A DNA stretch of 64,000 nucleotides from Pegea sp. RAD2-039 (Eukaryota; Chordata; Thaliacea; Salpida; Salpidae): the NCBI GenBank assembly GCA_034620365.1, contig JAQGEQ010000043.1, forward strand, positions 1,116,001 through 1,180,000. Direction: 5' to 3'. Below, in pieces: positions 2,193-59,100 of the stretch (its first letter is position 1; every line of letters starts with the position of its first letter). Position numbers and translations under genes: made by a program. The notes beneath the pieces are model-generated. The model worked only from the letters and a program-made list of their open reading frames with translations, did not search any database and was not told the origin of the DNA.

Positions 2193-4669
2193 ATGCAAAC
2201 TATTAAATGTGTTGTTGTTGGGGATGGTGCTGTTGGTAAGACTTGTTTGTTGATTTCATATACAACCAACAAATTCCCTCAGGAATATGTCCCAACAGTG
2301 AGTGGTGTTTAATGAATTACTATTTTGTGACATCTTGTAACAATTACTTCAATTATTAGCATCATATTTTTAATTGATTAATTGAAGATATGAGTTGAGT
2401 TGTTTGACTTTCTAGGTGTTTGATAATTATGCTGTGACTGTTATGATAGGAGGTGAACCATATACTCTTGGACTTTTTGATACTGCTGGTAAGTTGAGAA
2501 AAACTTTTAAATAGTTAAAACTTTTACTCTAATTATATATACTTTCTTAGTCATGAATTGTTTTAAGTTTGATTTAGCTCTCTTGTATTCATTTATGACA
2601 CTAAATCTTATCTAGATAAACCTGTTTAAGTAGCTTATTTTAAAATTACTTTAAATATTTGTTTAATTTTTTTTTAAAGTAAATTGTTAGTTTTATAAAA
2701 AATAGGATTTTTTACAAATTATTTTATAAAGTTTATTACAATTTTAATTTTTTTTGAGTTAAAAACAATATTCACTTACAAACACTATCAGACAATGTGT
2801 TTATTCTGTTGAATAAATTCTCCTTAAATAATTCTTATAATCCGGTTTGTGAGATATTTTTCCAATTATGTAAAATCTTTGATTAAAATAGAAATTTTCC
2901 AAATATCTTTCATAAATTTTAAGGATGTAAAAATTATCATTTTTGGTTTTCTTCAGAGATATGTTATTGAGACTTTTATTTGATTTTGGTGAAGAGTAAA
3001 ATTGAATAAAGTAATCTCAGAGTACAATAGTGAAGAATACTTCATTTTTCATTATCATCTTAGAGTATAAACTATAAGAACAAATTAGCAAAGTTGGAAT
3101 TAATATATCAGCTTTGTTCATGATTATATCATCTCAACCTTAATTACTGATCCCCTAATAATTATTCAATTGATGTATTTTAGGTCAAGAAGATTATGAC
3201 AGACTGAGACCTCTAAGTTATCCTCAAACTGATGTGTTTTTAGTTTGTTTTTCAGTTGTTTCACCTTCTTCATTTGAGAACATAAAGGAGAAAGTAAGTT
3301 TGATATGACAGGTTGTTTCAACTTCTTCTAACATCAAAACTGTTTGTAGTGGGTCCCTGAAATCACCCACCACTGCCCCAAGACCCCGTTTTTGTTAGTT
3401 GGAACACAAGTCGATCTTCGCGATGACGCTGGAACAATTGAGAAGTTGTCGAAGAACAAGCAGAAGCCCATAACACAAGATGTGGGTGAGAAGCTTGCTA
3501 AAGAACTGAAAGCTGTTAAATACGTTGAATGTTCAGCTCTAACTCAGGTAAGATTTTATAATCTTCAACTCCTTTACGTTTTTAAATAGTAAATAACTTC
3601 TCCTTTCAGTAAATTGTGTTTGTTTGTTGGTTTGTTTTTTGTGTGAATTTGATCTGGGATATTATCAATGATTGCAAATGATGAATCTTTGTTAGATATT
3701 TTGGTCTTACAATTTAGTTCGCCTAAACCGTTAACGCTTTCAATCCGGTTGTTGTTGTTTTTCTGCTTTTATTTCTCTTTACATGAGTTTCTGCTAATAA
3801 GTTTTAGTAAAACATGGCTTCTACAGTTTTCTGTAAGCTTAATTAATAAATTGACTGAGTGTCACAAAGTTTTGTTGGTCCATACAAGCTTCATAAATTC
3901 AACATCTACATTTCAATGAGTTAATTCACTAGAAGCAGAATAATTAACGAGATATCAACTCCTGTTTAACTCATGGTTGATCTCTGCAGCGTGGTTTAAA
4001 AACCGTTTTTGATGAAGCGATTTTGGCTGCCTTGGAACCACCTACTAAACCACGTAAACCTGGCTGCAGTCTTTTATAAATTACAAATTCTGTGTAAGAA
4101 CCAATTTCCTTTTGCATCCATACTTCAGTTACTATCATCACTGATCAACTGATGTAGATCTTCTAATGGTGCATGTGTCAAATACTCATCCACATTATCT
4201 ACTTGAAAATGATCTGCAAGATGTCACTTTCGTGTCTCTGATCCAGTCTTTAATGATACTTTATGTTCAAAATCGATTTTTTGTTATCTGAGATTTACTT
4301 TGATCTGAAATATCTGATTGGTGTTACATCAGCAGCATGTATCAGTTGATATTCTGATCCACATTTCAATGATTGTGTCCCGATTCTGTGATTACGATTC
4401 TATAAAACGATGATTAATTTTTATTGCTTTTTGAAATCATTACGAAGTGATTTTTCAGCAGCATGTCCCCATATCACCCGTTTTCGTTTTTCAACTTTTA
4501 TTTATTTTGTTAAATAATTAAACCCACTCAATGACGTCATCAACTCGATGCTTACTACTTCAACAATTTGTATCGACAGAAAGGTTTAAAAAATGTTTTC
4601 GACGAAGCCATACTAGCCGCGCTAGAACCACCGGAACCAAAGAAGAAGAGAAAATGCGTGATTCTCTGA
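2193..4669 (+). CDS. CDC42: Cdc42 small GTPase, two alternative terminal exons
   Basis: Rho-family GTPase controlling actin, polarity and filopodia at the plasma membrane. Coding exons: 2193-2297, 2416-2488, 3184-3293, 3350-3547, then either 3990-4079 or 4580-4669. Either choice gives 191 residues, the human Cdc42 length. Visible motifs are the P-loop GDGAVGKT (residues 10-17), switch I YVPTVFDNY, switch [13 protein letters not shown], the base-binding segment with TQVD, and the SAL motif. The two last exons share KGLK/RGLK...[12 protein letters not shown] and then differ: [11 protein letters not shown] against [11 protein letters not shown]. Both end in a CAAX box with Leu, predicting geranylgeranylation. 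Both are in phase 0 after CAG at 3547, so mutually exclusive use is consistent. Vertebrate CDC42 also has two alternative terminal exons. MAD2L2 converges from the other strand. Confidence 0.97.
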
Positions 4670-4994
4670 GATCTCTTCCAACCTCCATCCTAGTAGACAG
4701 AATATTGGACGGTCAACTTCTGACTGGCCTCACACTAAACCTGATTATCGGCAACCAACATTTTAACTACTTTTCTTCTAATTCAGCAGTTGTAGGTACT
4801 TTGATAATCCACTTATAGATGATTTTTTGTAAATAATTGTTGCTTCTTCTACCCTCTATTCCATTTATCTGTTGATTGGTTTTGATGCGCTATTTATGCG
4901 TGGTTGACTTGATATCTGGTGATCTTTCAAACAAGACTCATTCAAAATTAATCGTCAATCAGCTTCTTAACTTCCATCTATTCTTACTCACTTT

Positions 4995-56138: not shown

Positions 56139-59100
56139 TCAATTTAATGATGTTAAACCTGATCTTTCAACTTGCTTATGATCTTCATCAGATACTGAGT
56201 CCTGTGAACAACAAAAAAGATAAGCTTGAACTGATCAAGATGTTCCGAACCTGGTTAAAAGAAGAATTTGGCGTCCTGGTATGCTGAGGAATGATCAGTG
56301 TTTTGTTCCTGAACGTTTGCAGGTAATAAGGCGAATATGGTCGATTGTAAGATCGATTTAATATACTCTGTAAAAAGAAGAAGTAGGAAATTGAAATAAG
56401 GTGAGTAGATTTGGACATACTTTTGAAGTAGCACTTTGTGTGCTTCGCTCCAAGAAGCAGTTTCGAAGTGACAGCTTCAATTGTTGTTGAAGTCTGTTTG
56501 TGTCATATGAACTGATTGGACGCTGAAAGCTTCGATTGCCAGGTAGTTTTGCGTGCCCATATTCGTACCTTCCTGTTGTCATATCAGTCATTACACGTTT
56601 GTACTCGCTACAAATAACATCGATGACGTCACAACCAGTTGATGATTTCACAAAAACGCTAACCTATTTATAGCAGTGATATGAGATGATTTTTGGAGGA
56701 TGATAATGTCCTGAGAGCGCGATAAGCACTCAGCTGCTTCACTATTGCTTCGTCGTGTTCCTTCCTGATGTAAAAGACTTCCTGATGATGTATATGTTTT
56801 CATGACAATCGAATTAAACTCATGCATCGATTGAGCTTACCCATGATTGCAAGAACGCGCGCTACATCTTTTCTTCTTTCATTTACTTTGTAGATTGATA
56901 ATGCTTCCTTATAAGCCAACAGCGCCCTCCGACGGCCTCTGTCATCACCACCAACGACAAATGTCATCAATGACGTCATTATTGAGCGCTACCTGTTTCT
57001 CTGTTGCTGGTAGTAACCACCATAAACTTCGAAAACTTCTGCAACGTTCACATGATGTAATCCGTGCCACATCATCAAAGATGTCATCGACGTGTTTAAC
57101 TCCTCGGCTACTCGATCAGTCGCGCCTGTAAGATGATGTCATTACTCGTAACGTCATAAGCACATCCACATTCACCTGATCTGATTGTTAATTGGGCGAT
57201 TGCTGATATAGTGCGAGCTAATCCACTGATGCTGTCACATTTCTCAAATACATCTCGCGCTCTCTGTAATAAACGACTGATGACGTCGAAAGGGTGAGAA
57301 ACTCGACTCACTATCAAATGATGACGTAATTGTGGTGTGACGTCATAACCAACTTTATTCAGTAGCATATGTGCTATGTGCAAATGTATGTTTCCTGAAA
57401 GTAAGAAAAGTCAGCTAGCAACAGTTCAAAGCCTTCGAAAAATTTACTGAAATTTCAACTAAAAAAATAATTTATTTCTCAACTTTCATCAAATAACCTT
57501 TTGAGTGCATCAAAGTTTTCCTTTCTTGGCGAGATAATCTCAGACTCGACATTAAATCTTCTTTACACATTTGAAGACTTCTTATAAACACATCAACTTC
57601 TCTTTGAATCCCTATCTGAGATTCAAGACTTGCAAGGAAGATTTGAAGGACACATTGATATGAGAAAGGTGAGATGTTCTGTCGGAAAATTACCGAAGTT
57701 TTATAGCAACGTCCAGATGTTTTCATTTACCTCTATCAACCAATTCCTGATATCATTTGTAATCTTGATTGAGTCTTGTAGATAAATCTGATCATTCTTA
57801 AAGAGGAACCAAGCGGAAAAAATCTTCAACTTTAGCACATCTGTCTCATCTAACTTCATGAGTGGCTTTGAATGAATCGGGGAACGATCTGAAGAAGAAA
57901 TAATCTTTTAGAAGAGATGGATACTCAGATGGAGACTTACTTTTAGTTAATTCTTCATCTGATGATATTTCTTCAGGAATTAATAATTGGATCTCTGCTT
58001 CAACTTTGATACCCTTTCCTGCATCTATGATCATTTGCTGAAAAACAATCTTAGTGACGTCAACATGAGTAATCAAGTAGGTGATGCTGACGTGCAAAGA
58101 AGTAGCGAGATGAAAATGATGACGTCGAAGAAGCCTCCACAAACAAATCACTTCATTCAGATAAATCTGATCATGACGGCACTCTTCACACATTCCCAAA
58201 AAGAAGCTGTTGCCATGCCGAGGTTACACTATGTATGACGTGGCACACTTTTACGAACCGTGGTTCACTCATAACATCACACAGGGCACGCCAATCACGG
58301 GCCTTCATCAGTTGCCATGGCAACTCAACAATTTGTCGCTGTATCGATGTAAAGTTTCGCAGATAACTGGCGATGAACGAATGATGACGTAATTGCGCCC
58401 TCAATTTGTCGATGCTGACGTCATAAATACATTGTCAAACTTTAATGACGTCATACGTTTTGTGACGTCATTAGCACTGACTCGAAGGCTTGGAATCCGA
58501 AAAGTAAGTTTCGAAGTGAATCTTCGACATCTCGATTGACAAAGCGTATAAAGTGACCACCAGAGGTCGCATGCAATAAAGGTCGACTCGCGCGCTGAAT
58601 CACCTGTTCATGAGTGACGTCATCACAACTGTACCGCTTACCTCGAAAAGTTGCCAATCAAATGACGTAACAGAGCGCTTTCCGCAGTAACCAATCAGCG
58701 TCAACATTTCCAACAACTCATCACGTGACAAACCGTGCCGCGAACTGACGAGAAGCTTCAACACATCTCGAACCCATCCGCTAATGTTGTTGCTGTCGTG
58801 GGGAATCCCAGAAGATGGGGATCGACTCCAACTTAGTTTGTTACTGATCGCGACAAAGAATAGATGCCAAAGATCACTGTAGCGGCCAATGACGTCACAT
58901 ATGTTTATTACGATATTGATGACGTCACCTGGTATTTCGATGAGTGATGACGTCATCAAGATGAAGTAATGAAGAAGCACATGCAAGAACAAGAGGACGT
59001 TTGCCAAACTTGCTGCAGCGTTGAATGCTTTCAGGAATCGGAACAAGCTGATGATGACCACTAGAGGGCGTGGAAATAAGATTAGCAAGAGAAGTAGCAT

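Follow-up and report, generated by a model that had tools for sequence, protein, structure and literature searches.

The octamer TGACGTCA, or TGATGACGTCATCA in its fuller form, is a highly iterated palindrome in the DNA of an animal, the salp Pegea sp. RAD2-039. In a 64-kb stretch of this genome (assembly GCA_034620365.1, contig JAQGEQ010000043.1, positions 1,116,001 to 1,180,000; hereafter the window), we count exactly 30 perfect copies, where a first-pass annotation had estimated about thirty by eye; its chance expectation of roughly one or fewer agrees with 100 dinucleotide shuffles, which give a mean of 0.37 and a largest value of 3. The assembly containing the window (105,744,746 bases in 387 contigs) holds 27,792 copies, compared with 969 of the reversed word used as a control; this count, which the same annotation had proposed, is not near expectation, exceeding about 45-fold the ~611 copies predicted when the shuffle rate of the window is scaled by length. 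Genome-wide, GATGACGTCATC occurs 3,824 times against 4 in its control, and GTGATGACGTCATC 782 and 736 times on the two strands against 0. The force behind this excess acts on nucleic acid, on each perfect copy, in exons and introns, and with near two-fold symmetry. A 23-nt spliced leader of rotifers has no match in the genome at up to 2 mismatches, which speaks against a rotifer provided that the leader is conserved, and a look for mitochondrial cox1 yielded none. Our analysis draws on the sequence of one genome, with gene models of our own making.

Excess of a single palindrome

A positional sample of 224 kb, comprising the window plus 16 further 10-kb loci chosen by position, holds 59 copies of TGACGTCA, 30 of them supplied by the window; 10 of the 16 added loci have no copy, two have 10 and 14, and four have one or two. 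Among the 24 octamer palindromes that contain each base once per half-site, TGACGTCA leads this sample with its 59 copies, followed by a runner-up with 6. Another palindrome with the same base composition overall, TCACGTGA, has 15 copies in the 224 kb where 1.5 are expected, an enrichment of about 10-fold. Its copies are dispersed through AT-rich and GC-rich DNA (window positions 5536, 16963, 48797 and 58721, and loci L006, L007, L012, L013, L016, L017, L019 and L020), and 3 of the 15 lie within 160 bases of TGACGTCA.

Motif anatomy and specificity

The information in the motif ends some 3-5 bases outside the octamer. At the 59 sampled sites, position +1 is T (0.67) or C (0.26), one or the other on 93% of sides, +2 is C (0.49) and +3 is A (0.55), giving the consensus TGATGACGTCATCA; composition is back to background by about +5. 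RTGACGTCAY fits 24 of the 30 window sites. The first-pass annotation overstated the case in giving many of them the GATGACGTCATC form, which is complete at 5 of the 30 and present on one side only at 11. Relative to transcription, the flanks are nearly alike on both sides (93 intronic sites in predicted genes), the one strand asymmetry being a G at +3, present on the 3' side at 30 of the 93 sites and on the 5' side at 11, that is perhaps due to AG acceptors.

Such nearly symmetric flanks resemble CREB/ATF sites and bear out the earlier identification of the octamer with the cAMP response element (CRE). CREB/ATF factors prefer R/Y flanks, and from the symmetry and the purine/pyrimidine preference seen here we infer that the motif is recognized in double-stranded DNA by a basic leucine zipper (bZIP) dimer of CREB/ATF-like specificity, a predicted binding. 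That the flanks matter is reported in PMC5349851 (in excerpt).

Specificity was assessed in 20 clusters with at least three copies each, some of them trimmed by the ends of the 3-kb loci. Here the perfect word stands 227-fold over expectation, words with one mismatch 3.4-fold (24 words pooled), with two 1.36-fold and with three 1.11-fold; among single neighbours, TTACGTCA and its complement reach about 15-fold and the CpG-decay words 5.9-fold. Of 332 occurrences of TGACGT, 292 continue with CA. The AP-1 site TGACTCA occurs once in the 24.4 kb of clusters and is not enriched, so that the specificity is strictly that of a CRE; AP-1/TRE, CRE-like, C/EBP and PAR variants, considered as candidates, show no comparable enrichment in the clusters. 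Every one of the 23 highest-ranking words listed for the clusters overlaps with the motif or with one half of it, and no motif of a second factor is among them. Distances between copies are in excess at 20-40 bp, beyond which they reveal nothing clear by way of nucleosome-length or helical phasing.

Genome-wide, the CpG-decay product TGATGTCA numbers 11,070 in both orientations together, against 2,673 for its reversed control, a scarcity which means that copies are either kept or very young. Mere youth seems disfavoured, given a copy that lies within a conserved peptide (see below) and the lack of shared flanks.

Synonymous use in coding exons

The octamer fits into coding sequence in just two reading frames, X-Asp-Val-(A-starting codon) and (Leu/Met/Val)-Thr-Ser. 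In 14 predicted genes, 31 of the 58 amino-acid contexts that permit the motif carry it, compared with 1.58 expected from codon usage (by frame, 19 of 32 with 0.98 predicted and 12 of 26 with 0.60 predicted). Where the context is unable to complete the octamer, GAC-GTC or ACG-TCA stands in 1 of 54 and 0 of 6; conditioned on the neighbouring letters, the comparison is 31 of 39 permitted contexts with the motif versus 1 of 72 others (Fisher p 6e-19). Predicted motif-free genes, 22 in number and drawn from a stricter gene finder that missed the septin gene, have it in 0 of 12 contexts with 0.08 expected (0 of 5 with 0.05 predicted, 0 of 7 with 0.03 predicted). All 14 genes were kept for holding at least three motifs, as 18 models did before 4 window models were dropped as implausible ahead of the codon tests, and 11 of the 14 come from loci found through a longer motif form; such selection favours the presence of the motif, not the contrast between permitting and non-permitting contexts.

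Two kinase genes of MRCK and RSK type, spliced by hand and checked against their families, use the motif in 6 of 10 contexts against 0.56 expected (4 of 8 with 0.50 predicted, 2 of 2 with 0.06 predicted). They are the two motif-richest of six intron-bearing kinase loci (7, 9, 0, 3, 1 and 0 copies) chosen from 137 family matches, the MRCK-type gene being later extended; the choice was not fully blind, many TGA having been visible in one listing beforehand, a possible hint of the motif. Two further regions, C265:335000-382000 and C75:2000-116000, carry several protein kinase domains per contig in single stop-free frames and look like intronless kinase gene arrays.

One exonic copy in the MRCK-type gene encodes Ser-Asp-Val-Ile-His-Ala, where a Protein Data Bank (PDB) chain of mrck-1, which we take to be a C. 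elegans gene name, has Ala-Asp-Val-Ile-His-Ala (E 0.0078); Rho-associated kinase 2 has only Asp-Val in common at that peptide (E 0.28). The peptide is shared, and it is a silent codon choice that creates the motif. Exonic motifs made by synonymous codon choice place the pressure on nucleic acid, most likely DNA.

Copies in the window

The clusters outlined in the first-pass annotation hold, with coordinates right to within 5 bases: five copies at 4532-5482, seven at 21768-26107, one at 29657, six at 40426-42222 and eleven at 56624-58955. Each line below is a perfect TGACGTCA, given without strand; predicted introns come from rough models. The name ADCY10-like stems from that annotation and our own reading, TTC41-like from the annotation, and Nkx6 from the annotation together with a homeobox open reading frame.

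4532..4539, cluster 4532-5482, downstream of a Rho-type GTPase model
5094..5101, cluster 4532-5482, full GATGACGTCATC
5335..5342, cluster 4532-5482, pairs with 5359
5359..5366, cluster 4532-5482
5475..5482, cluster 4532-5482, full GATGACGTCATC
21768..21775, ADCY10-like gene, predicted 61-nt intron
22817..22824, ADCY10-like gene, predicted 48-nt intron
22981..22988, ADCY10-like gene, exon (DDVIT) in one model, unsure given an acceptor-like site close downstream
24346..24353, ADCY10-like gene, predicted 47-nt intron
25202..25209, ADCY10-like gene, predicted 37-nt intron
25600..25607, ADCY10-like gene, predicted 50-nt intron
26100..26107, ADCY10-like gene, 3' part
29657..29664, predicted 58-nt minus-strand intron of a model later judged implausible as a whole
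40426..40433, Nkx6 3' region
41112..41119, Nkx6 3' region, triplet 41112/41138/41164
41138..41145, same triplet
41164..41171, same triplet
42018..42025, within the minus-strand open frame containing the Nkx6 homeobox part
42215..42222, just beyond the Nkx6 homeobox open frame, probably an Nkx6 intron
56624..56631, TTC41-like gene, predicted 56-nt minus-strand intron
56971..56978, TTC41-like gene, predicted 66-nt intron
57338..57345, TTC41-like gene, predicted exon (Asp-Val-Thr)
58055..58062, TTC41-like gene
58416..58423, TTC41-like gene, dense run 58416-58470
58446..58453, same dense run
58463..58470, same dense run
58615..58622, TTC41-like gene, predicted 38-nt intron
58890..58897, TTC41-like gene
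58920..58927, TTC41-like gene
58948..58955, TTC41-like gene, full GATGACGTCATC; the open frame here holds an exonic DDVIT copy

The window also contains a perfect tandem repeat at 26807-26916 (33-bp unit, 3.3 copies) and, at 9720-10049 (plus strand) and 31968-32315 (minus strand), two open stretches with translations that look similar by eye, perhaps two copies of a dispersed element.

Introns, patches and base composition

An intron length of about 50 nt is common in this genome. In the MRCK-type gene (C3:779300-786300), whose frames are open in two pieces, 17 copies fall within the 676 bases that make up the 13 introns of the motif region (25 per kb), 12 of these introns having at least one; the exons hold 6 copies in 2,397 bases (2.5 per kb), and the introns lying further 5' hold none. 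The 23 copies of this 7-kb stretch fall between 1.3 and 5.1 kb, in introns and exons, with no promoter-proximal placement (start sites being unmapped). Two minisatellite introns of the gene (~0.6 and ~1.6 kb; L041, L047), free of the motif, lie beside dense motif patches. All nine copies in the RSK-type gene are intronic, five of them in a single intron as part of a short tandem repeat, and those of the septin gene sit mostly in ~50-nt introns, some of which carry two. Across 18 genes in rough models, density is 5.0 copies per kb in introns below 80 nt, 1.7 in those of 80-250 nt and 0.65 in predicted introns above that length, and exons have 1.26; this tabulation includes the four implausible window models, and the models contain errors.

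In the sampled stretches copies lie mostly in gene bodies, as the first-pass annotation had it, insofar as rough gene models can place them. Its further view that AT-rich spacers are almost free of the motif holds for raw numbers (3 copies in the 134 kb of 500-base bins below 30% GC in the 224-kb sample), but even these bins stand at 6.7 times their local expectation. The ratio is 10 at 30-35% GC, 29 at 35-40% and 89 above 40%, where 42 copies fall in 18.5 kb, and in bins of 30-45% GC there are more copies per kb where the observed/expected (o/e) ratio of CpG is at least 0.8. The 20 clusters are about 0.4 to 2.7 kb long, with 2.6-11 copies per kb, and have a CpG o/e of 1.10 once motifs are masked; the 10 loci without a copy have 0.48-0.68 in nine cases and 0.81 in one, with TpG and CpA at 1.0-1.2, a pattern that suggests methylation. 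The tie between patches and CpG is a correlation.

Motif-rich loci come mostly from contig C1 (6.1 Mb). Over longer distances, too, the density varies: among the 100 places listed, which span C1 and part of C3, 74 belong to C1, with 13 between 2.03 and 2.24 Mb, 23 between 3.56 and 3.89 Mb and only 6 in the first 2 Mb. A 3-kb locus that contains a BTB-domain gene reaches 30 copies, coding exons included. Host genes are diverse, encompassing by Pfam the septin, kinases, an alpha-galactosidase and the BTB-domain gene, and by reading alone glycogen synthase, plexin and others. A gene model at L037 (C1:2204046-2207059) has an ion-transport-type membrane domain together with a weak phosphatase-type match, suggesting a voltage-sensing phosphatase.

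Maintenance of the palindrome

The mechanism that we prefer, tentatively, is a conversion-type transmission drive favouring motif-bearing alleles. Copies would arise in place by point substitution, and a bZIP dimer of CREB/ATF type would recognize the motif in germline DNA; in recombining, unmethylated patches the bound allele would then serve more often as template than as recipient of gene conversion, for example where the bound factor shields it from breaks. A weak, steady pressure on each perfect copy, working in patches that range in size from a few hundred bases up to a few kilobases and on introns and exons alike, would maintain the motif, and perfect copies would spread through introns and silent codon sites until halted by protein-coding constraint, the mirror image of a self-destroying recombination hotspot. 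Under mutation-drift equilibrium the folds would translate into a scaled advantage of about 4-5; taken as equilibrium odds, they give roughly ln 227 = 5.4 for clusters and roughly 3.7 for permitted exon contexts. Advantages of that size are typical of weak selection or biased gene conversion. We lean towards drive because the copies are redundant, fill about half or more of the permitted contexts and seem indifferent to gene type, and because near-saturation regardless of gene or position is more easily reconciled with a per-site drive than with regulatory need. The broader proposition, in which a bZIP-bound palindrome wins gene conversion and, in a reversal of the hotspot paradox, a selfish transmission rule overwrites an animal genome, we advance with greater reserve.

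Several observations weigh against a drive of this kind. The genome yields 12 bZIP_1 matches, no expansion of the family. Exonic odds are about 40, below the intronic fold changes, which run to hundreds. GC alone does not mark the patches: bases 501-1000 of the MRCK stretch have a GC content of 0.44, a CpG o/e of 0.77 and zero copies, and copy-free predicted genes of 42-43% GC exist (L014 and L019, in rough models). By hotspot theory, moreover, a break-promoting site should lose itself through conversion. At the fission yeast site M26 a bZIP factor promotes nearby breaks (PMC9775316, in excerpt), and a site of that type should erode, so that drive here would need the opposite sign, a shield; the same excerpt has the full TGACGTCA in yeast ade6 neither bound by Atf1-Pcr1 nor raising recombination.

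Natural selection for bZIP binding is also possible, and nearly as likely as conversion drive: homotypic CREB/ATF landing arrays would maintain the chromatin of gene bodies in an open, unmethylated or expression-licensed state, each copy adding a little. The nearly symmetric RTGACGTCAY flanks, the CpG-rich patches and the single AP-1 site in the clusters all suit such selection, as do the methylation sensitivity of CREB binding and the concentration of most human promoter CREs in CpG islands (PMC1796609, in excerpt). With up to 30 copies in a 3-kb locus and its coding exons, however, single copies should be redundant, the top words offer no partner factor, and the host genes are of many kinds. 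The copies may or may not be the real bZIP sites suggested in the first-pass annotation: their recognition pattern looks bZIP-like, but the arrays are not of the promoter type known for CREs.

An RNA-level role, as an intronic splicing or RNA-pairing element in which two palindromic copies could join splice sites, is unlikely. It draws on the peak of density in introns below 80 nt, the excess of pair distances at 20-40 bp and the two or more copies found in 9 of 24 hand-checked introns, most of these chosen for holding the motif and two having had their ends corrected after the placement test. Yet 14 of the 24 have a single copy, for which self-pairing is impossible, and pairing in intron RNA fails as a general rule; of the 196 short introns predicted in motif genes, 152 lack a copy altogether. 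Distances from copies to donor and acceptor vary widely in the hand-checked introns, and the share of single copies in the zone 10-21 nt before the acceptor is that of uniform placement (40 introns, p 0.54; 14 hand-checked, p 0.21), a result against a branch point or fixed splice element. Flank symmetry and synonymous exonic use likewise argue against an RNA-level role, and the splicing signal entertained in the first-pass annotation finds no support, there being no acceptor-zone preference and a presence in coding exons besides.

We regard as similarly improbable a mutational origin, in which a sequence-specific mutator or biased mismatch repair would create or preserve the octamer with no effect on fitness or transmission. 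Action in introns and at silent exon sites would suit it, and a mismatch-repair by-product model has been proposed for bacterial highly iterated palindromes (PMC4390886, in excerpt), but a mutator would need to read all eight bases, and one-mismatch neighbours are near background. An insertion origin (introner, ends of miniature inverted-repeat transposable elements (MITEs), excision scars or tandem slippage), to which the first-pass annotation's mobile or slippage-prone repeat belongs, is very unlikely: a few of the copies are indeed part of short tandem repeats (the RSK-gene intron, the 3' end of L029), but the nearly symmetric motif has no shared sequence beyond ~3-5 flanking bases, exonic copies fit their frames and a conserved peptide with no indels, and both long MRCK minisatellite introns lack it, so that tandem repeat, mobile element and excision scar are ruled out as a general cause.

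One octamer appears to have shaped many genes here in their codon choice, their intron sequence and their CpG content, and under either leading mechanism models that treat synonymous sites and introns as neutral would be misleading for this lineage. A true transmission bias would allow conversion drive to be measured in an animal over tens of thousands of natural replicates, and would put to a direct test the question of why the motifs of hotspots decay elsewhere; under selection for bZIP binding, gene bodies would instead hold a dense, hitherto unrecognized regulatory or chromatin code.

Comparison with known systems

Among the matches listed in the open-licence literature, subscription papers and preprints lying outside that scope, no animal precedent appeared. 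Unlike an introner or MITE, the palindrome shares no sequence past the motif and brings no indels into open frames. With the CRE of CREB/ATF bZIP dimers it shares the core TGACGTCA and the R/Y flanks. In mammals, CREs cluster in the 150 bp upstream of the start site; sea squirt, fly and worm showed no positional bias in the same work (PMC1796609, in excerpt); here, unlike in mammals, as many as 30 copies occupy the coding and intron DNA of one locus. M26 (ATGACGT), a meiotic hotspot of fission yeast, is bound by Atf1-Pcr1 and surrounded by ~70 bp without visible breaks (PMC9775316, in excerpt). The salp motif resembles it as a CRE-like site within a gene body, M26 being bZIP-bound and linked to gene conversion, and differs in that M26 raises breaks whereas copies accumulate here; the perfect CRE in yeast ade6 was reported inactive.

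The uptake words of Neisseria and Haemophilus are not palindromes. They are short words that have accumulated through biased transmission or molecular drive and fall off per mismatch (PMC1939737, in excerpt), as the excess in our clusters drops steeply with each mismatch; bacterial DNA uptake drives them, whereas no uptake is known in this animal. HIP1 and other highly iterated palindromes of cyanobacteria are octamers far above expectation whose maintenance is debated (PMC4390886, in excerpt). Like HIP1, TGACGTCA is one short palindrome far above its compositional expectation genome-wide, its copies single and outside longer repeats, save for a few tandem arrays; HIP1, in contrast, is bacterial, reads GCGATCGC and is linked to orphan DNA methyltransferases that read its core, where we find an animal, introns, a patchy distribution and the sequence of a CRE. 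Were drive its cause, the palindrome would give HIP1 and the uptake sequences of bacteria their first counterpart in a eukaryote. In form, as an exact word with a steep fall per mismatch and point-wise accumulation, it is like both and a member of neither.

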